From a virus, in the IMG/VR virus record IMGVR_UViG_3300021185_002914, positions 1 through 44,647 of that record: a stretch of DNA of 44,647 nt. One strand, 5' to 3'. Shown one piece after another: positions 182 to 40,919 of the stretch. How positions within the stretch are numbered: position 1 is the stretch's first letter; every line of letters starts with the position of its first letter. The position numbers were made by a program, and so were the translations under genes. The notes beneath the pieces were generated by a model. That model saw only the letters and a list, made by a program, of their open reading frames with translations. It did not search any database and was not told the DNA's origin.

Positions 182-532
182 TTATTTTATTTTAGTGTCT
201 GCTTCGTGTAATACATGCTCCATTTCTACCCAGGTTACTGTGTCAGGACTATCCATAAGATAATCGTAAAGACAAGCAAAGGCAGCTTGAGCAATGTTTT
301 CAGGTCGACCGTAAACATCATGCTCGTTGTAATGATACTCGGAATTGCCTTCTAGTATAGCTTCGCAATCACGTGTGTAGATAACTGCGTTGTCAATCCA
401 TTCATGAAAGAAATCGTAGAAGTCATCTTGATTGTTTATATCACCCTGGTGAAACGCATGCCATGCATCTTCGCTGAATGATTGGTCCATTGCTTCTAAT
501 TTCCAATTGTGTAATGCTCTATATAATTCCAT
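182..532 (-). CDS. Early-region protein of unknown function, 116 aa
   Basis: Acidic, aromatic-rich soluble protein with a dense run of His, Asp, Tyr and Trp in the middle (around residues 25-75, including HEWIDNAVIY and a Cys at about 56). It resembles small proteins of unknown function common in early regions of phages of Bacteroidota and other hosts; I cannot name a family. It is the first gene downstream of the promoter-like motif at 541-586, with only 17 bases between the GTGATAATA half of that motif and the ATG, so its mRNA would have a very short leader. Confidence 0.75.
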   Translation of the reverse strand: MELYRALHNWKLEAMDQSFSEDAWHAFHQGDINNQDDFYDFFHEWIDNAVIYTRDCEAILEGNSEYHYNEHDVYGRPENIAQAAFACLYDYLMDSPDTVTWVEMEHVLHEADTKIK

Positions 533-540
533 ATTGTTTT

Positions 541-586
541 ATTTTATATTATTATCACGTTTGTATTTATTTTGTTGTGTATTTTA
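541..586 (-). promoter_or_regulatory. Promoter-like early motif, copy 1
   Basis: Read on the minus strand this holds AATACACAACAAAA, then 11 bases, then GTGATAATA (complement of 550-558), followed by an A/T run and the ATG at 532. The same two blocks with exactly the same 11-base spacer recur at 1172-1218, 1521-1560 and 2104-2148, each ahead of a minus-strand gene group. The motif begins at the stop codon of the upstream gene (584-586). It does not match the Bacteroidota sigma consensus (TTG and TAnnTTTG). Confidence 0.75.
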
Positions 587-715
587 GTACATATTTTGTT
601 GCCATTGTGGAATACCCGAGTTATATCTTTCCCAATATTCTTGTTCAATTATTTTTATTCGTTCTTGCGTTATCTTTGCAATAGTTTTTCTGCTATTCTT
701 TCTAGTTTTTTTCAT
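584..715 (-). CDS. Small basic early protein, 43 aa
   Basis: Starts at ATG 713-715, overlapping the stop of the 101-aa gene upstream (TAATG arrangement), which points to translational coupling. The N-terminal third is strongly basic (Lys/Arg/Asn/Ser), followed by a charged amphipathic helix and a Gln-rich C-terminus. It may bind nucleic acid, but this is only suggested by its charge. Its stop codon is the first triplet of promoter-like motif copy 1. No family recognised. Confidence 0.65.
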   Translation of the reverse strand: MKKTRKNSRKTIAKITQERIKIIEQEYWERYNSGIPQWQQNMY

Positions 716-1020
716 TAGTACATTTTATTTTTACGAATGTATTCGCCTAAGGATTTTTGTGATCGCTCAATTGCAATTCGATTTGTTTCTTGATATTCGA
801 TAATTTCAATTGCATCGTTTATATTTGGACAGTATACAATAGTTGTTGCAGGGTCGTGACGGTTTTGAAAGTACATGGTAACACCAGGCATTGTTTCGTC
901 ATGGTCAGAATACATTTGTTTTTTACCTTTATATATTTTGTAAAGGAATGTATCGTTGAAACTTCGGTTGTAAGCTGGTATTGCACCGCTTTCTACATCT
1001 TTAACTATTGCTTTTATCAT
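715..1020 (-). CDS. Early protein of unknown function, 101 aa
   Basis: Soluble mixed alpha/beta protein with a basic C-terminal helix. No signal peptide or membrane segment is seen. It sits in a three-gene group (44, 101 and 43 aa) downstream of the motif at 1172-1218: 10 bases separate it from the upstream small membrane protein, and its stop overlaps the next start. I do not recognise conserved motifs. The length, coupling and consistent A/T leader support it as a real gene; the plus-strand frame over the same bases is low-complexity and hydrophobic and is a shadow. Confidence 0.75.
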   Translation of the reverse strand: MIKAIVKDVESGAIPAYNRSFNDTFLYKIYKGKKQMYSDHDETMPGVTMYFQNRHDPATTIVYCPNINDAIEIIEYQETNRIAIERSQKSLGEYIRKNKMY

Positions 1021-1030
1021 ATCTTTTATT

Positions 1031-1165
1031 TTAGTAGCCGAGATTTGTGAATCCTAATTTTATTACACCGTAGTACATTGTTACAAGCCATAATGGAATG
1101 AAAATACTTATTGCAATTATTCGGATTATATTCTCGATTGTTATTAATTTTTTTATTGTAGTCAT
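1031..1165 (-). CDS. Small single-pass membrane protein, 44 aa
   Basis: Short frame from ATG 1163-1165 to TAA 1031-1033. After a basic N-terminus there is one hydrophobic stretch of about 20 residues (residues 13-32, Ile/Phe/Leu rich), so the product should be a membrane peptide. It is the first gene after promoter-like motif copy 2, with 16 bases between the GTGATAATA block and the ATG. Small membrane peptides in early phage blocks often act in host takeover or superinfection exclusion, but nothing here shows which, if either, applies. Confidence 0.65.
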   Translation of the reverse strand: MTTIKKLITIENIIRIIAISIFIPLWLVTMYYGVIKLGFTNLGY

Positions 1166-1171
1166 TTGTTT

Positions 1172-1218
1172 TATTTTATATTATTATCACACATTAAATT
1201 ATTTTGTTGTGTATTTTA
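1172..1218 (-). promoter_or_regulatory. Promoter-like early motif, copy 2
   Basis: On the minus strand AATACACAACAAAA (complement of 1202-1215) is separated by 11 bases from GTGATAATA (complement of 1182-1190), then a TATAAAATAA-type run. It directly follows the stop codon (1216-1218) of the 75-aa gene and precedes the 44, 101 and 43 aa gene group. Block sequences and spacing are identical to copy 1, while the 11-base spacer differs, as expected of conserved recognition elements rather than a simple duplication. Confidence 0.75.
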
Positions 1219-1443
1219 TAGTATATCTTGCTTAATTCTAGGTAAACTGTTGTGAGTCCATAAATTACCTTTAGAGTGTGTTCGTCTAGTTGTTGAGGTC
1301 TTACGCTTAATTTGTTTCACGGACTCATTAAACTCTTTCTGTGTGAATCCTTGGATAGTGTCGTAGCCATCTACTTGTTTCCACTGGTTTGCACGTTCTT
1401 TTTTCTGTTGAGCTGAGTAAGCTAATAAGTCTTTCATGTTCAT
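1216..1443 (-). CDS. Basic early protein of unknown function, 75 aa
   Basis: Lys/Arg/Gln-rich soluble protein (Q-K-K-E-R near residue 14; an Arg/Thr/Ser-rich stretch around residues 47-57). The start could be ATG 1441-1443 or the in-frame Met two codons later. It is the only gene between motif copies 2 and 3 and has the longest leader of the block, about 80 bases, in which ATTGATT and AATCAAT could pair as a weak hairpin. No family recognised; DNA or RNA binding is possible from charge alone. Confidence 0.65.
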   Translation of the reverse strand: MNMKDLLAYSAQQKKERANQWKQVDGYDTIQGFTQKEFNESVKQIKRKTSTTRRTHSKGNLWTHNSLPRIKQDIL

Positions 1444-1520
1444 AATTTATATTTTTAAAGTTGTGCCCTGCATTGATTAATATTGTTTTAAGAGAGGCAA
1501 TCAATTTTATAAAACTCTCA

Positions 1521-1560
1521 TTTATATTATCACAACTTTAGTTATTTTGTTGTGTATTAT
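1521..1560 (-). promoter_or_regulatory. Promoter-like early motif, copy 3
   Basis: Minus strand: AATACACAACAAAA (complement of 1545-1558), an 11-base spacer, and GTGATAATA (complement of 1525-1533). Unlike the other copies it lies partly inside a gene: the last six codons and the stop of the 74-aa gene (1538-1762) are written by the first block. It precedes the 75-aa gene with an unusually long leader. Confidence 0.7.
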
Positions 1561-1762
1561 ATTTGTTTATCATTTCTTTTAAGGCGTTGATATCTCGCAT
1601 AACATCCATTGATTGAACAATTCTATCATTATCCCAGTACAATTCATGTTCTTTATATAAGTGATCTAACACATCTTGGAAGCTTTTATTAAGATTTCCA
1701 TCATTCATTAACACTCTTTCTTGTACTTCTTTTTGAAGTCTTTTCATTCTTAATTCTTTCAT
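1538..1762 (-). CDS. Helical early protein of unknown function, 74 aa
   Basis: Highly charged protein that should be almost entirely alpha-helical, with a heptad-like pattern in residues 1-20 and 45-68. It follows the 32-aa frame by one base and belongs to the three-gene group read from motif copy 4. Its C-terminal residues Asn-Thr-Gln-Gln-Asn-Asn are encoded by promoter-like motif copy 3, so the C-terminus is probably not under strong protein-level constraint. No family recognised. Confidence 0.65.
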   Translation of the reverse strand: MKELRMKRLQKEVQERVLMNDGNLNKSFQDVLDHLYKEHELYWDNDRIVQSMDVMRDINALKEMINKYNTQQNN

Positions 1763-1763
1763 A

Positions 1764-1862
1764 TTATTTATTTTTTAATTCTTCTTGCATTTCTAATACT
1801 AACCATATTAAGTCACCATTACTCCATTCATTTAAGCTTTCAAAAGTATATTCTGTTTTCAT
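1764..1862 (-). CDS. Very small early protein, 32 aa
   Basis: Begins at ATG 1860-1862 and ends with TAA 1764-1766. It has one base between it and both neighbours, which is the main reason for calling it. The product is acidic, contains two Trp residues and would form one amphipathic helix. It is probably translated by reinitiation within the group from motif copy 4. No function can be given, and a chance frame filling the gap cannot be fully excluded. Confidence 0.5.
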   Translation of the reverse strand: MKTEYTFESLNEWSNGDLIWLVLEMQEELKNK

Positions 1863-1863
1863 A

Positions 1864-2085
1864 TTATATTAGTTTTTTAGTTAGCATTAACATTCTTTCA
1901 TACCATTCTATAATGGTTTCATCATATTTCATTTCATTATCTAAGTTTACAATCTTATCTAATTCATTTATAATTTCTATTTCATTTTTAATTTGAATCT
2001 CACTTCCCCAGTAATCTTTAATATAAAAGGATGTTTTTTCTCTAAACTTAGCTAACTCTTTTACTATCTTTAATCTTACATTCAT
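1864..2085 (-). CDS. First early gene of the minus-strand block, 73 aa, unknown
   Basis: The first minus-strand gene leftward of the divergence region, 25 bases after the GTGATAATA block of motif copy 4. The product is helical and charged, with two Trp residues (about 25 and 61) and an acidic C-terminal half. It may be among the first phage products made, given its promoter-proximal position; that is inference. No motif recognised. Confidence 0.65.
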   Translation of the reverse strand: MNVRLKIVKELAKFREKTSFYIKDYWGSEIQIKNEIEIINELDKIVNLDNEMKYDETIIEWYERMLMLTKKLI

Positions 2086-2103
2086 AATACTTATATTTTA
2101 ATT

Positions 2104-2148
2104 ACACTTATATTATCACATGTTAATAATATTTGTTGTGTATTTTTT
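2104..2148 (-). promoter_or_regulatory. Promoter-like early motif, copy 4
   Basis: Minus strand: ATACACAACAAAT (complement of 2131-2143), an 11-base spacer, GTGATAATA (complement of 2111-2119). It lies at the edge of the long AT-rich intergenic region and heads the 73, 32 and 74 aa gene group. Because no gene lies directly upstream, this copy shows that the motif is not a by-product of gene ends. Confidence 0.75.
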
Positions 2149-7361: not shown

Positions 7362-8939
7362 ATGACACAATTTGGCGGACCAAAGCTCGTTAAGAAAACA
7401 TATTTTAAAGACGAAGCTAAAAGCAAATTAATTAAAGGAATAGAAAAGATAGCAGATGCCGTTGGCTCTACATTAGGAGCTAGCGGTAAAACTGTAATAT
7501 TAGAAGACGACTTCGGTGGTCCTCACGTAACTAAAGATGGTGTTACTGTAGCCAACAGTATATTACTTCAAGATCCAGTTGAAAACTTAGCTGTATCTAT
7601 GATGAAGCAAGCTGCGCAGAACACGGCATCAGTTGCCGGTGATGGAACCACAACGTCAATAGTACTTACTAAAGCTATTATAGATTCTTATTTTAAATTA
7701 GAAGGTAACAAGTTTTCCTTCAGAGACATTAAGTCTGGTATTAATAAGTTATCTAGTGTTGTTGTAGATGAGCTAACTAAAAGAGCACTACAAGTGGATG
7801 ATAAGATGTTACACGACGTTTCTATTATATCTGCTAACAACGATCACGATCTAGGAAACTTAATTACACAAGCCTTTTTAAATGCAGGTGATAATGGTAT
7901 TGTTACCATGGAAACATCACCTACTAATGATACTTACATTGATTCTGTAGAAGGAACTAAAATAGGTAGCACCTCAAAATCTCCTCACTTCCATACTAAC
8001 AAAGAAAAAGAAGTTAGCGAGCTAGAAAATCCTTTGATTTTTATGAGTGCTTCTAGTATACCTAATGTAAGAAAAATTCAAGACATCTTGGAGTATGCTA
8101 TTAAGACCAATAGATCCATACTCCTTATTGCACCTTTAGAATCGCAGCCATTAACTGCGTTAGCTATGAATAAAGTAAAGGGCAATATTAAGGTCAATGT
8201 TGTTGAACCTCCTAGTTTCGGTCTAAAACGTAAAGATATATTGGAGGATCTCGCATTGCTTGTCGGAGCGAAAGTATTTGATGAGTCACTTGGTGATTCT
8301 ATTGATGCTATCACCACTGACATGTTAGGGTCGGCTGATAAAGCCATTTCAGATAAAGATGGTACTGTACTTGTTGTGTCAGAAAAAAGTGACGAAGTAC
8401 AAGAGCGTATTGATTATTTAAAAACTGAACTTGAGAAAGAAGATCATTTTGTTACTACAAAACATTTAAATGATCGCTTAGCTTTATTATCAGGAGGTGT
8501 ATCTGTAATTTATGTAGGTGCGGCAACTGAGGTAGAACTAAAAGAAAAACAAGACAGAGTAGATGATGCTATACACGCAGTTCGTGCGGCTAAGAAAGAA
8601 GGAATACTACCAGGTGGTGGTTCTGCTTTAGCTTATGCGGCAACAGCGGATTGGAAGTTAGAATTAAACCAAGGCGAGCTTAAGGGTGTAGATATACTAA
8701 AAGACGCGTTGGTTGCGCCATTTACAAAAATATTAGATAACGCTGGCTTATCTCCAAAATCTTATACACTAGATGGTTGGGGCATTGGCGTAGACGTAAA
8801 CTGCGGTTGTCAAAAAGTAATGATAGACATGGGTATTATAGACCCATTGCTAGTTACTAAGACAGCACTCAGTAGTGCTATTTCAGTAGCAACAACAATT
8901 TTATCAACAGAATGTGTAGTAAGTAACGTGAGAGAATAA
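7362..8939 (+). CDS. groEL: Phage-encoded chaperonin, GroEL-like, 525 aa
   Basis: Full-length group I chaperonin. ATPase residues equivalent to E. coli Asp52, Asp87 and Asp398 are present as Asp59 (V-T-K-D-G-V-T-V), Asp94 (V-A-G-D-G-T-T-T-S) and Asp402 (R-V-D-D-A-I-H-A-V-R-A-A), followed by G-I-L-P-G-G-G-S-A-L. The apical region (N-V-R-K-I-Q-D-I-L to S-F-G-L-K-R-K-D-I-L-E-D) aligns with the GroEL substrate- and GroES-binding surface. It is divergent: the usual TLGPKGRNV is TLGASGKTV, and the GGM tail is missing (525 against 548 residues). It sits one base ahead of its GroES partner. It probably folds phage virion proteins such as the capsid protein. Enzymatic competence is inferred from residues only. 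Confidence 0.93.
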   Translation: MTQFGGPKLVKKTYFKDEAKSKLIKGIEKIADAVGSTLGASGKTVILEDDFGGPHVTKDGVTVANSILLQDPVENLAVSMMKQAAQNTASVAGDGTTTSIVLTKAIIDSYFKLEGNKFSFRDIKSGINKLSSVVVDELTKRALQVDDKMLHDVSIISANNDHDLGNLITQAFLNAGDNGIVTMETSPTNDTYIDSVEGTKIGSTSKSPHFHTNKEKEVSELENPLIFMSASSIPNVRKIQDILEYAIKTNRSILLIAPLESQPLTALAMNKVKGNIKVNVVEPPSFGLKRKDILEDLALLVGAKVFDESLGDSIDAITTDMLGSADKAISDKDGTVLVVSEKSDEVQERIDYLKTELEKEDHFVTTKHLNDRLALLSGGVSVIYVGAATEVELKEKQDRVDDAIHAVRAAKKEGILPGGGSALAYAATADWKLELNQGELKGVDILKDALVAPFTKILDNAGLSPKSYTLDGWGIGVDVNCGCQKVMIDMGIIDPLLVTKTALSSAISVATTILSTECVVSNVRE

Positions 8940-15863: not shown

Positions 15864-16583
15864 ATGTCAAGAATAAAAAACTATCAAATAGATACCGCTA
15901 TCACTGGCGGAGATAAACTAGTAGGTTCTGACATAGGGGATAACAACGCAACCAAGCTGTACTCAATAGGTGGCATTGCAGAATTTTATTCTAAAACAGG
16001 CGATGCTGATGGCGCAAAAATAGGTTTACAATATCAGTATGCAGGTAAGTATGAAAATAATGCTATACACGCAAAAGAGTTTAGGTACGCTGTAGATAAT
16101 ACAGCACCTCAACAATTTGGTTGGTCTAATATAACAGCTATTGCTTTTTCTAAAAAAACAATAAGTCTTGTTGATATTTCACCAATAGTTGATTTACTTT
16201 TAAATCAAAATATTAAAATAACAAACTCAGCACAAGGAGGACAATCTAATTACGCGATTTATGTTGTTGTATCAATAACTAACTTAGCGGATGCTTTCTT
16301 ATTAAATTTAACACATGTAGGGAGCAGTGGTACGCCAGCTTTAGATTCGATTGCTGTAGCAGCTATAGGGGTTTCTAATGTTGAAACTGATAAGTTTTTT
16401 ACATTTGACCAACCAAGTGCTTCAAGCGTTTGGAATATACAACATAATTTAGGAAAATTTCCTAGCGTAAGCGTAGTGGATAGTGCTAATAATATAGTAC
16501 AAGGATTTACAACATATTTAGATAACAATAATTTAACAATAAGTTTTACATCTGCTTTTTCAGGAAAAGCATATTTAAACTAA
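15864..16583 (+). CDS. Tail-fibre protein with shared anchor, 239 aa
   Basis: Same N-terminal anchor type as the 673-aa fibre at 10168 (M-S-R-I-K-N-Y-Q-I-D...G-G-D-K-L-V-G-S-D). The C-terminus reads V-W-N-I-Q-H-N-L-G-K-F-P-S-V-S-V-V-D...F-T-S-A-F-S-G-K-A-Y-L-N, a widespread phage fibre tip domain. The middle resembles a short receptor-binding beta domain. It is thus a compact fibre built from two recognisable ends. Confidence 0.75.
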   Translation: MSRIKNYQIDTAITGGDKLVGSDIGDNNATKLYSIGGIAEFYSKTGDADGAKIGLQYQYAGKYENNAIHAKEFRYAVDNTAPQQFGWSNITAIAFSKKTISLVDISPIVDLLLNQNIKITNSAQGGQSNYAIYVVVSITNLADAFLLNLTHVGSSGTPALDSIAVAAIGVSNVETDKFFTFDQPSASSVWNIQHNLGKFPSVSVVDSANNIVQGFTTYLDNNNLTISFTSAFSGKAYLN

Positions 16584-17562: not shown

Positions 17563-19425
17563 ATGGGCATTCAATTTAAATCACCGATAGACCTTTCGGC
17601 GCATAGAGCTATAAGGCATAGCGACACTGCCCAGAACTTAATAGTTAAAGTTGTAACTAAAACTACCGCTCACCCAGAACATGGAAGCGGTAGTTCTAAT
17701 GGCTATACTATAGACGGTATTGAAGGTGCTTATCTTGAATTGACTCCAGGTAATACGTATTATTTTGATCAAACAGATAGTTCAAATGCAGGACACCCCT
17801 TAAGATTTTACGAGGACGCTACAAAAAATACTGCCTATACAACAGGTGTAACTACAAGTGGGACACCCGGTATGTCAGGAGCATATACTCAAATAATACC
17901 GACTACGTCTACTCCTCCTGTTTTATTTTACCAATGTACTGCACACCCTCTTATGGGTAGTTATGCTAAATTTGGCACAGGAACTATTGGAGATACTTAT
18001 GGTATTAATGCTAGCACAAACGGGACTAATGTTAATTTAAATTTAGATGCGGGTTCGGGAACGGATTCGTTAGTGCAACTTACTTCGGGACAAAATATTG
18101 TATTAACTAGAAATAATTCTGCACAAGTAACTATAGATGCTGAAGAATACGAGTTAGGATCAGTTCAAGATGGTAGTAATGTAGATTTAAATTTAACATC
18201 TGGTACGGGTAGTGATAACTCAACAGTTCAACTTACTGCAGGCTCAAATGTAACACTTACTTCTCTTAATAATGAAGTTACGATAGCCGCTTCTGCGGGT
18301 CTGTCTGGAATAACAGTACAAGAAGAGGGTTCATCTTTATCTACTTTAGCTACTACATTAAACTTTGTAGGAAGTGGAGTAACAGCTAGTGGAACTGGTA
18401 ATACAAAAACTATTACTGTAACAGGTGGTGGTGGTGGAGGATCTTCAACTTTTTATAAAGATACTTTTAGTGGGAACGGTTCAACAACTGGATTTACTTT
18501 AGCAAACTCTGTATCTAACGAAAATTTAACGCAAATATATATAAGTGGTGTATACCAATCTAAAGACAATTATAGCGTTAGCGGTACAGGAATAACATTT
18601 ACAACAGCTCCTGCAGCAGGAACTAATAATATAGAGGTTATATCAGTAGGCTCTGTTAGTGTTTCAGATGAAGGTACGCTTTCTAGAGATTCATTTACTG
18701 GAGATGGTACTACTACACAATTTACTTTAGGTGTTGCACCAACTTCAGAGGATTTAACTTATGTATTTATTCAAGGTGTGTATCAAGAAAAATCAACGTA
18801 TTCCTTATCAGGTAGTACATTGTCTTTTTCTGAAGCGCCGCAAAATGGGTATACATTTGAAGTAATGTCTTTAACTGCTACTAATTTATCACAAACAACT
18901 TATTTAGCTAATGATACTTTTACAGGTACAGGATCACAAACATCTTTTACTCTTGTAAATGGAACGCCAACAAATAAAGCGTTTACTATGGTTTTTCTTT
19001 CTGGTGTGTATCAGCAGAAATCTACATATAGTTTAACTAGTGGCGCTATTGTTTTTGGCACAGCGCCCGCTAATAATGATACAATAGAAATTGTTTCAAT
19101 AGGTAATGGTGGTCTTATTGGCGCTTCTATAAACGATGCTAATAATGCTAAATATAACGTAAACGTTATAAATAATAGCACTACAGCTTCGGCTGGGTCA
19201 GTTTATGTATTTACAGCTAATTTAAATTTAACACTACCGGCTAACCCAACTTCTGGTGATAGTATAAAAATATCGAATAGATCTAACGTAGCTACATGCC
19301 AACTTCTTAGGAATGGAAATAGAATATTAGGAGCAGCTTCTGATTTAACTTTGGATACTATTGGAGCAAGCTTTGAATTAATATATTCAGACGCAACTAA
19401 TGGTTGGGTAATAATAGGACAATAA
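17563..19425 (+). CDS. Fibre with cupredoxin-like domain and triple repeat, 620 aa
   Basis: Residues about 45-140 form a cupredoxin-like domain. Y-T-I-D-G-I-E-G and Y-Y-F-D-Q-T-D-S-S-N-A-G-H-P-L-R-F (His about 77) are followed by Y-Q-C-T-A-H-P-L-M-G (about 124-133). The His, Cys, His and Met are spaced like a type 1 copper site. Residues about 296-522 hold three tandem ~75-residue repeats, each opening D-(T/S)-F-(S/T)-G-x-G...F-T-L and containing G-V-Y-Q-x-K-(D/S)-x-Y-S. The C-terminus (S-F-E-L-I-Y-S-D-A-T-N-G-W-V-I-I-G) matches that of the 673-aa fibre at 10168. Copper binding is inference. Confidence 0.78.
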   Translation: MGIQFKSPIDLSAHRAIRHSDTAQNLIVKVVTKTTAHPEHGSGSSNGYTIDGIEGAYLELTPGNTYYFDQTDSSNAGHPLRFYEDATKNTAYTTGVTTSGTPGMSGAYTQIIPTTSTPPVLFYQCTAHPLMGSYAKFGTGTIGDTYGINASTNGTNVNLNLDAGSGTDSLVQLTSGQNIVLTRNNSAQVTIDAEEYELGSVQDGSNVDLNLTSGTGSDNSTVQLTAGSNVTLTSLNNEVTIAASAGLSGITVQEEGSSLSTLATTLNFVGSGVTASGTGNTKTITVTGGGGGGSSTFYKDTFSGNGSTTGFTLANSVSNENLTQIYISGVYQSKDNYSVSGTGITFTTAPAAGTNNIEVISVGSVSVSDEGTLSRDSFTGDGTTTQFTLGVAPTSEDLTYVFIQGVYQEKSTYSLSGSTLSFSEAPQNGYTFEVMSLTATNLSQTTYLANDTFTGTGSQTSFTLVNGTPTNKAFTMVFLSGVYQQKSTYSLTSGAIVFGTAPANNDTIEIVSIGNGGLIGASINDANNAKYNVNVINNSTTASAGSVYVFTANLNLTLPANPTSGDSIKISNRSNVATCQLLRNGNRILGAASDLTLDTIGASFELIYSDATNGWVIIGQ

Positions 19426-23433: not shown

Positions 23434-23802
23434 ATGGGACATTACGCACTGTTAGACGAAAATAGCATAGTTACTGAAGTTATAGTAGGTAAAGATGAAA
23501 CAGATCTTTCATATGATTGGGAAGAAATATATGGGGCTTTAAAAAGGCAAACTTGTAAAAGAACATCTTATAACACGGTTGCGGGCACACATAAAAATGG
23601 AGGTACACCTTTTAGAGGCAATTACGCGGGAATTGGAATGAAATACGACCAAGACCTGGATGCATTTATTGAAATACAACCATATCTATCGTGGACGCTA
23701 ATTGATTACATTTGGCATCCGCCTGTACCATTACCAGATGACGCAAATCCAACAAATGAATATTCATGGGACGAAGACAATCAACAATGGGTTAATGTTT
23801 AA
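23434..23802 (+). CDS. Marine-phage structural-locus protein, 122 aa
   Basis: H-Y-A-L-L-D-E-N-S-I-V-T-E-V-I-V-G-K-D-E, then Y-N-T-V-A-G-T-H, then F-R-G-N-Y-A-G-I-G-M-K-Y-D-Q-D-L-D-A-F-I, and a C-terminal W-x-P-P-V-P-L-P...Y-S-W-D-E. I recognise this arrangement as a very widespread small protein of T4-like cyanophages and other marine phages, with no assigned function. It ends the fibre locus and precedes lysis. Confidence 0.72.
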   Translation: MGHYALLDENSIVTEVIVGKDETDLSYDWEEIYGALKRQTCKRTSYNTVAGTHKNGGTPFRGNYAGIGMKYDQDLDAFIEIQPYLSWTLIDYIWHPPVPLPDDANPTNEYSWDEDNQQWVNV

Positions 23803-23804
23803 TT

Positions 23805-24218
23805 ATGTCTAAAAAAAAATTTAAAGATACCAACGTTGGGAAATTTTTATTACAAAAGATTCCTAGCGTTGTTGGAGCTATTGCAGGTGACACACCTGTT
23901 GGTTCTGTAATACAAGCTATAATCGGAGGCAGCGATATGTCACCAGAAGATAAAGAAGTTGCTCTTAAAAAATTAGATATTGAAAGAGCTGAAATTGACG
24001 GTACAACAAGAAGGTGGGTAGCAGATGCAAGATCAGGAAGCTGGCTTGCAGCTAATGTACGGCCATTAACGTTGGTGTTTTTAACATCATCATATGTTGC
24101 TGGTTGGTATATGGGTTACCCATTAGATGATATAACGGGACTATTAACAATAGTTATCGGGGGCTATTTCGGATCACGAGGTGTCGAGAAGGTATTCGGA
24201 AATAATAAACATAAATGA
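23805..24218 (+). CDS. Holin, 3-TM-type family, 137 aa
   Basis: Helical N-terminal half with charged segments, then a membrane segment following the motif S-W-L-A-A-N-V-R-P-L-T-L-V-F-L (about residues 78-92) and a second one (L-L-T-I-V-I-G-G-Y-F-G, about 111-121), then a basic tail. The V-R-P-L-T pattern and layout match the Holin_3TMs-type family (DUF3154). It should form the inner-membrane lesions that start lysis. It overlaps the next small membrane gene by four bases (ATGA) and stands before an endolysin, which supports the call. Confidence 0.8.
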   Translation: MSKKKFKDTNVGKFLLQKIPSVVGAIAGDTPVGSVIQAIIGGSDMSPEDKEVALKKLDIERAEIDGTTRRWVADARSGSWLAANVRPLTLVFLTSSYVAGWYMGYPLDDITGLLTIVIGGYFGSRGVEKVFGNNKHK

Positions 24219-24370
24219 TAAATACAGATTTAAAAATATACGGTTTAAACATTACAGCATTATTTGCTAGTTCAGATATGGCACACAATATTAATCCTAC
24301 ACTACAAACGCTAGTGTTAGTGCTTACAATAGTTTATACTTCAATCAATATATATAAAAAATTTAAATAA
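24215..24370 (+). CDS. Small single-TM lysis-cassette protein, 51 aa
   Basis: ATG 24215-24217 overlaps the holin stop (ATGA); TAA at 24368-24370. One membrane segment near the C-terminus (about residues 31-46: L-Q-T-L-V-L-V-L-T-I-V-Y) with a Lys-rich end. Placed between holin and peptidase, it may be an antiholin, accessory holin or spanin-like peptide; the sequence alone does not separate these. Confidence 0.65.
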   Translation: MINTDLKIYGLNITALFASSDMAHNINPTLQTLVLVLTIVYTSINIYKKFK

Positions 24371-24371
24371 T

Positions 24372-24728
24372 ATGAAATTAAAGTACTTTACAGACGAAGA
24401 TGATTTTAAAGGAAACATGGATAAAATGGATCCTAAACTTTTAGGTATGTTAGATGCTCTTAGAAAAGAGTATGGCTTTCCTATAGTTATAAATTCATCG
24501 TATAGATCACCAGAACATCCTATTGAAGCCGCCAAAAATAATCCAGGTGAGCATACATATGGTGCTGCTGTAGATATTAAATGTGTCGGTGGAGAAGCTA
24601 CATACTTATTAGTTGCTGCTGCAATTAAATGTGGGTTTAAAAGAATTGGAATATCAAGAAAAAGTAATTTTGTTCACGTAGGTATTGGTTATCCTGGTGC
24701 ACCTAGCACGACTATCTGGACATATTAA
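24372..24728 (+). CDS. Endolysin, M15-type zinc peptidase, 118 aa
   Basis: Single M15-family (M15_3/VanY-like) peptidase domain with S-S-Y-R-S-P-E-H-P (residues 42-50), H-T-Y-G-A-A-V-D-I (61-69) and V-H-V-G-I (101-105). His61, Asp68 and His102 are the predicted zinc ligands. It would cut peptidoglycan stem peptides during lysis. There is no signal peptide, so it should rely on the holin at 23805 for access to the wall. The size is typical for the family. Confidence 0.85.
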   Translation: MKLKYFTDEDDFKGNMDKMDPKLLGMLDALRKEYGFPIVINSSYRSPEHPIEAAKNNPGEHTYGAAVDIKCVGGEATYLLVAAAIKCGFKRIGISRKSNFVHVGIGYPGAPSTTIWTY

Positions 24729-24960: not shown

Positions 24961-25526
24961 TGAAGTCTATATACAATTATATTATATTTTCTCAAAACAG
25001 ATACAATAACTCAACAAACGTAGAGGGTAAAGAACTTATTTTAAATACTGAAATAACAGAAAGAGATTATCAGTTTGTAAATAGAATAGGAACTATTGTA
25101 TCAACACCATTGTTAGAAGACGATCCTATTAAAGAAGGCGTTGAGGTTATATTACATCACAATGTATTTAGACGATGGGTAGATATACGAGGCGTGGAAA
25201 AAGATTCATCTAGCCTTATTAAAGAAGACTATTACATGGTTTCTCCAGATCAAATATATGCTTATAAAGAAAACAATGAATGGAAATGCCCAGATCAATA
25301 TTGCTTTGTAAAGCCTATAAATGATGAATCAAAATGGAGCACCGAGAAGGAACGAAAATTACTTGGTGAGCTTGTGTATAGCAACGAGTATTTAGAGTCA
25401 TTAGGGTTAGCCACAGGAGACGTGGTTGGCTTTACGCCGGATTCAGAATACGAGTTTAATATTGACGACACAAAATTATATAGAATTTTATCAAATCACA
25501 TAACACTACAATATGAATCGCACTGA
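24960..25526 (+). CDS. GroES-like (Cpn10-type) beta protein, 188 aa
   Basis: The order of elements resembles a co-chaperonin: an opening I-Y-N-Y-I-I-F-S, a flexible stretch, V-N-R-I-G-T-I-V-S-T-P-L (about residues 40-51), I-K-E-G-V-E-V-I-L-H-H-N-V-F-R-R-W (58-74) and Y-Y-M-V-S-P-D-Q-I-Y-A-Y (92-103), comparable to the GroES G-x-V-L, G-D-x-V and Y-x-I-x-E-x-D-I-L-A segments. The C-terminal half (about 105-188) contains Y-C-F-V-K-P-I and E-Y-E-F-N-I. This is inference from pattern; a virion protein is possible. It overlaps the next gene by 14 bases. Confidence 0.5.
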   Translation: MKSIYNYIIFSQNRYNNSTNVEGKELILNTEITERDYQFVNRIGTIVSTPLLEDDPIKEGVEVILHHNVFRRWVDIRGVEKDSSSLIKEDYYMVSPDQIYAYKENNEWKCPDQYCFVKPINDESKWSTEKERKLLGELVYSNEYLESLGLATGDVVGFTPDSEYEFNIDDTKLYRILSNHITLQYESH

Positions 25527-40427: not shown

Positions 40428-40919
40428 ATGAATTTAATCAAATATATAAAAGAAAAAATTGTTGAAAGATCTTTTTCAAAAAAAGTTGGAGGGTTTTTAA
40501 AAGAACTTTATAAAAGTCCTGTAACTGAAGATCTTATACATAATAACGGAAGGTGCGTAAGAGAGGGAGGAAAGCTATTTAAATTAGAGCATGATTTTAC
40601 TGATGGCTTATACTTAAGGAAAATGATTATGCAAGAAGGCTCAATGATTTTTAGTGCTATACACAAAAGAGACCATGTATGGTTTTTATTGACAGGGCAT
40701 TTAAGCATATCAACAGGCGGCAATGTAGAGCATTTTGTAGCGCCCTATATAGGTTTTTCTAAAGCTGGAACGCAAAGAATACTATATGCTCATGAAGAAA
40801 GCATATTTCAAAATGTTTTTAAAAATCCATTAGAATTAACAGACTTAGACGAATTAGAAGATTTTAATTACTCATACACAAAAGATGATTATACAGACTA
40901 TATTAGAAACAGCAAGTAA
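40428..40919 (+). CDS. Cupin-like protein of the virion module, 163 aa
   Basis: The stretch from Y-L-R-K-M-I-M-Q-E-G-S to Q-N-V-F-K-N-P (about residues 63-142) has the strand order and spacing of a small cupin: H-K-R-D-H-V-W-F-L-L-T-G-H-L-S-I, then V-A-P-Y-I-G-F and S-K-A-G-T-Q-R-I-L-Y-A-H-E-E-S. His residues at the D-H and A-H positions could bind a metal. Proteins of this type recur in marine phage structural regions. Enzymatic role unproven. The next gene starts 35 bases before this stop. Confidence 0.6.
   Translation: MNLIKYIKEKIVERSFSKKVGGFLKELYKSPVTEDLIHNNGRCVREGGKLFKLEHDFTDGLYLRKMIMQEGSMIFSAIHKRDHVWFLLTGHLSISTGGNVEHFVAPYIGFSKAGTQRILYAHEESIFQNVFKNPLELTDLDELEDFNYSYTKDDYTDYIRNSK

Follow-up and report, generated by a model that had tools for sequence, protein, structure and literature searches.

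A two-block promoter-like element in the early arm of uncultured marine phages and a phage-encoded sigma70-family factor that probably reads it

The window, the whole stretch of DNA analysed here, comprises 44,647 bases. It is an entire IMG/VR record, a fragment without end repeats. At the start of its early arm lies a series of small minus-strand genes, interspersed with four copies of a two-block element (Table 1), and the contig ends 0.5 kb beyond the last of these copies. One of the genes, that of 101 amino acids, is judged from sequence clustering to be probably the window's representative of a family shared by 7 of 10 long motif-bearing genomes (G015 18154–18471). A GroEL-like chaperonin, common to the relatives, is encoded at 7362–8939 (PHROG 5725, E 7.7e-128).

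Table 1. Promoter-like elements and early genes at the start of the early arm in the window
Feature	Coordinates	Strand	Description	Position	Basis
Motif copy 4	2111..2143	-	-35-like 2132-2143, -10-like 2111-2119	first promoter, adjoins divergent early/late switch; 25 nt before gene 1864-2085	exact match
First early gene	1864..2085	-	73 aa; no PHROG match below E 0.1		ORF
Early gene	1538..1762	-	74 aa		ORF
Motif copy 3	1525..1557	-	-35-like 1546-1557, -10-like 1525-1533	~80 nt before gene 1216-1443; -35-like block overlaps 3' end of ORF 1538-1762	exact match
Early gene	1216..1443	-	75 aa		ORF
Motif copy 2	1182..1214	-	-35-like 1203-1214, -10-like 1182-1190	16 nt before small ORF 1031-1165	exact match
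Small early ORF	1031..1165	-	44 aa	directly after copy 2	read from sequence
Early gene	715..1020	-	101 aa		clustering
Small early ORF	584..715	-	43 aa	ends just before copy 1	read from sequence
Motif copy 1	550..582	-	-35-like ATACACAACAAA 571-582, 12-nt spacer, extended -10-like GTGATAATA 550-558	17 nt before start of gene 182-532	exact match
Early gene	182..532	-	116 aa	directly after copy 1	ORF

A first-pass annotation of this DNA had described a bipartite minus-strand motif at four sites, and an exact search recovered all four as ATACACAACAAA-N12-GTGATAATA, a pattern with no match in 100 dinucleotide shuffles. The gap of 11 bases given there holds if the upstream block is taken as ATACACAACAAAW; after ATACACAACAAA the gap is 12. 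A relaxed scan of the whole record, with gaps of 8–16, revealed no fifth site within the 44,647 bases; the next-best site had five mismatches and lay within a gene. It was also right that three of the four copies stand 16–25 bases from a start codon, the distances from GTGATAATA being 17, 16 and 25. A near-identical contig, L007, carries the same four copies, so those in the window are not an assembly error. Copy 4 has corresponding first promoters in G015, G068, G049, G077 and G033. Copy 3 is followed by a leader of about 75 nt (1443–1521, minus strand; ATGAGAGTTTTATAAAATTGATTGCCTCTCTTAAAACAATATTAA...), which is kept in the otherwise distant phages G048 (41839) and G081 (859, oriented). This leader may itself be a small ORF, or it may have a regulatory role; its predicted structure is weak. 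An Rfam search of the window gave no match.

The terminase and portal of the window matched those of MW202828 at 62 and 50% and those of the Flavobacterium phages elemo at 44 and 40%, with a more distant match to Cellulophaga phages such as phi38:1. The nearest phages are those of Elemovirus and Callevirus (Pervagoviridae), not Crassvirales; in the NCBI taxonomy elemo belongs to Elemovirus, phi38:1 to Pervagoviridae and phi14:2 to Crassvirales. From these distant cultured relatives the host group is presumed to be Bacteroidota. One phage contig of the motif clade, L235, was binned in a marine 'Rickettsiales' MAG; this binning is probably an error. Longer relatives have two divergent arms, one structural and one for early and replication functions, the latter in the order small genes, ligase, sigma, ERF, exonuclease, primase-helicase, thymidylate synthase and ribonucleotide reductase. 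In the early arm of MW202828 (L105) the palindrome GTGTCGTTAACGACAC occurs in 14 copies, from 43747–50000 and on to record position 55156, several of them just before genes. These palindromes may be operators; the record also annotates a repressor protein.

The element is found as [AG]TAC(ACA|GTT)ACAAA-N12-GTGATAATATAA in more than 20 related marine phage records, in up to 9 copies that are clustered on the early-gene strand with rigid spacing; in the relatives it was first seen with altered upstream blocks. A scan of the collection gave 51 stretches. Counted over whole records, the longer relatives mostly hold 3–9 copies within about 4–8 kb on one strand, and the same count with the pattern reversed, as a control, gave a single match over 41 records. 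Single non-canonical matches in eight unrelated contigs (G045, G046, G052, G062, G069, G070, G074 and G076) were taken as chance. Across 18 genomes the TAC...ACAAA block stands exactly 12 nt upstream of 74 of the 76 GTGATAATAT words. Variable block spacing was looked for and not seen except in rare variants, for example ACGATAATA in G066. The motif words are the top-enriched words upstream of early-strand genes; they were not found among the enriched words of late-strand genes, and motif discovery on the late strand gave no comparable element. The 20-base pattern occurs twice in 84,980 bacterial and archaeal species (one genome each), one occurrence being in a marine contig that is itself of the motif phage type. 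Both the motif and the sigma gene described below are absent from MW202828, elemo and phi38:1. Together with the short leaders and the gene groups downstream, confinement to the early strand in the relatives supports the earlier proposal of a phage-specific bipartite promoter.

Some copies of the motif, in a point against the promoter reading, overlap the first codons of small ORFs. One such copy lies in a small conserved ORF (M-K-S/N-T-Q/L-Q...SDNISEEI) at L109 19065–19169 and in its orthologues, where a switch of the central triplet, described below, also alters the peptide. Another overlaps the first codons of a conserved ORF of 44 amino acids (MKARD...), which itself overlaps the ERF gene in another frame (L110 3731–4373, G015 23731–24373, and orthologues); this may point to a frameshift or to another start for ERF.

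A sigma70-family gene lies about 2–7 kb downstream of the motifs in the relatives. Its product, a core early-arm protein of 243–261 amino acids, matched PHROG 351, 'RNA polymerase sigma factor', in 8 of 9 members, and its profile matched SigA in the PDB over region 4 (E 1.6e-8) and region 2 (E about 3e-4). A fold model built from 23 rows, which replaced a poor 9-row model (pLDDT 54), is of moderate confidence (pLDDT 67); nearly all of the Foldseek matches listed for it were sigma factors (best E 2.6e-3). The 24 sigma loci form two subfamilies, about 27% identical, both of which go with the GTT form of the motif, a point against the reading given below. The gene is present in 16 of the 16 motif records that extend more than about 2 kb past the motif cluster (G015, G033, G047, G048, G053, G054, G058, G065, G066, G067, G073, G077, G078, G081, G082 and G084), a count that omits the eight chance records and G071, whose sigma is divergent and gives weak matches. 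Motif records without the gene end sooner downstream of the cluster. Conversely, where a sigma locus has at least 2.75 kb of upstream sequence, the motif is present there. The window phage's own sigma gene is predicted to lie just to the left of base 1, off the contig. No match to this sigma was obtained by tblastn against 50,697 phage records, and a search of the phage collection found no cultured relative with it.

It is very probable, on the evidence of sequence, that the four elements are early-arm promoters of sigma70 geometry, recognised by this phage-encoded factor, which would redirect the host core RNA polymerase. Each promoter would consist of a -35-like block, AAA[AG]TAC-ACA/GTT-ACAAA, then 12 nt and an extended -10-like block, GTGATAATATAA (TG-A-TAATAT). 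If TG-A-TAATAT is read as an extended -10, a hexamer falls at -35, the spacer being 17 nt, which is the sigma70 geometry. Region 4 of the phage sigma would bind the upstream block and region 2 the downstream block, and host core polymerase would in this way be steered to the sites. The expected transcription start is about 7 nt past the -10 block. Leaders would then be roughly 10–20 nt long, which would suit hosts whose translation does not depend on Shine-Dalgarno sites. Expression is presumed to be early, as fits the position of the genes; if synthesis of the sigma has to come first, the promoters would belong to a delayed-early or middle class and not to the immediate-early one. The sigma gene itself lies inside the early arm with no motif directly upstream, and its first transcription could depend on a host-read promoter, on read-through with positive feedback, or on delivery of the protein in the virion.

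The 9-mer TGCTATACA was considered as a second promoter upstream of the sigma gene and rejected, since it proved to be dispersed over both strands, within genes as well. It is over-represented about 4–10 fold in the motif clade, falls inside genes in several frames and commonly has C or T as its next base. There are four copies in the window (8567–8575, 16061–16069 and 40655–40663 on the plus strand, 25375–25383 on the minus strand), 6–10 in the longer relatives and none in elemo, phi38:1 or MW202828. It may be a Chi-like word or one that serves modification or packaging.

The central triplet of the upstream block is ACA or ACT in the window, G015, G082, G068 and G049, and GTT or GTC (once GCT) elsewhere, and each of 18 genomes has only one type. 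In the portal tree the ACA phages are not a clade. G015 aligns with G077 and G053 at about 74–90% over most of 17.8–22.5 kb and at 80–88% from 23.8 to 30.5 kb and beyond; between these segments is a gap, in which lie the sigma gene, the ORF after it and one promoter. G015 is 92–94% identical to G077 and G053 in its ERF and primase proteins, whereas its sigma is only 29–31% identical to theirs and 72% identical to that of the ACA-type G082. The ERF tree groups G015, G077 and G053 (100/100). The sigma tree rejects this grouping (p 2.9e-18) and places G015 with G082, not strongly (72/85). As judged from these comparisons, G015 has GTT-type replication genes, like those of G077 and G053, flanking a foreign sigma cassette, and its promoters are of the ACA form, as in the phage with the similar sigma. 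Orthologous promoters keep their flanks and -10 block and differ in the triplet and some spacer bases. In the recognition helix of subfamily A, the two complete ACA types have P at position 206 and A at 208, and the GTT types V, M or Q and N, S or T; only three ACA-type sigmas are known. Exchange of the sigma cassette thus appears usually to be accompanied by a change of the upstream-block triplet.

The exception is L235. Its sigma has the P-D-A helix and an ACA promoter next to it, but the promoter 3 kb upstream is of the GTT form. The L235 ligase is similar to those of the GTT phages and of G015, and the part from sigma to primase is similar to that of the ACA-type G082. From sequence it looks like a recent recombinant; it may be an assembly chimera. 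Its mixed promoters may also mean that the code is tolerant and the triplet no strict specificity code. We propose tentatively, as an idea whose chances fall a little short of even, that sigma genes swap as cassettes and that all the scattered -35 triplets are then rewritten to match, giving interchangeable transcription codes in one clade. Recognition-helix residues 206–208 of region 4 (P-x-A in ACA types, mostly V/M-E-N in GTT types) would set the code, and L235 would have been caught halfway.

The first-pass annotation had linked the motif to a virion RNA polymerase of the kind known from the crAss-like phage phi14:2. Such an enzyme is reported for phi14:2, and homologues of it for every crAss-like phage (PMC8375218). 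An early promoter for such a packaged enzyme, crAss-like or N4-like, would agree with the early-strand position and with a consensus foreign to the host, and a polymerase ejected with the DNA would solve the transcription of the first genes. The link gained no support from comparison with the genomes: the phage is nearest Elemovirus and Callevirus, not Crassvirales, and phmmer with the large phi14:2 proteins, the RNA polymerase gp66, terminase and portal among them, found no match in these genomes. Searches of Pfam and the PDB with the giant last structural protein of the relatives gave no RNA polymerase, the rest of the window's own genome lying off the contig, and none of these searches found a giant RNA polymerase protein with a DxDxD-type catalytic motif. 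The -35/-10 geometry and the encoded sigma are already sufficient; the motif is better explained by a sigma70-family factor of the early arm, and a virion polymerase is very unlikely.

A host sigma might instead read the promoters with the help of a MotA-like activator, encoded by phage or host, on the upstream block, the phage sigma acting elsewhere. An upstream block next to a near-fixed extended -10 does resemble activator-plus-sigma promoters, and it is the upstream block that varies and the downstream block that is constant. The consensus for the Bacteroidota primary sigma (sigma-ABfr), however, is TTTG around -33 and TAnnTTTG at -7 (PMC7366714), and neither block of the motif matches it, as had been noticed at first reading. 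Host-type sites stand at about the chance level in these genomes, and host-type promoters were rejected as the drivers of the early arm. The triplet, moreover, tracks the sigma cassette, and the activator has only a slim chance of being correct. That the elements are operators of a phage repressor and not promoters is hardly to be credited. Such sites would be repeated before genes, as these are, and MW202828 has repeated palindromes of such a kind, but the motif is no palindrome: its two blocks are unlike, they keep a rigid sigma-type spacing, and their orientation is always that of the downstream gene.

Phage-encoded sigma factors with dedicated promoters include T4 gp55 and SPO1 gp28 and gp33-34. 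The motif phages resemble these systems in having a sigma70-family protein and a phage-only consensus that recurs, with its spacing constant, before genes of a single class. The promoters described here have a full -35 and an extended -10, with a new consensus, whereas the late promoters of T4 possess a -10 alone. Unlike in T4 and SPO1, the sigma is of a different lineage (tblastn as above), the sites are in the early arm, and the -35 triplet changes with exchange of the sigma cassette. With phi14:2 the likeness lies in phage-specific machinery for transcribing an early operon, but the motif phages belong to another order, no RNA polymerase gene was found in them, and there is no sequence match. 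Bacteroidota primary sigma promoters share the presumed host group and a two-part structure; the difference lies in the blocks themselves. In the distant relative phi38:1 (L122 11964–31812), the word ACACTATCAA is repeated on the early strand in about 10 copies, mostly intergenic and shortly before start codons. It is possibly that phage's own early signal, alike in standing just before early-arm genes, but it is a single-block word of unrelated sequence, and no homologous sigma was found.

To our knowledge no phage-encoded sigma/promoter pair has been mapped in phages that infect marine Bacteroidota, and none was found in the open-licence literature. What is gained here is a precise consensus together with the protein that probably reads it, a candidate orthogonal promoter-sigma pair. 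The natural allele swaps make the -35 specificity of the sigma factor directly testable, and the motif offers a means of finding early genes in uncultured marine phages.
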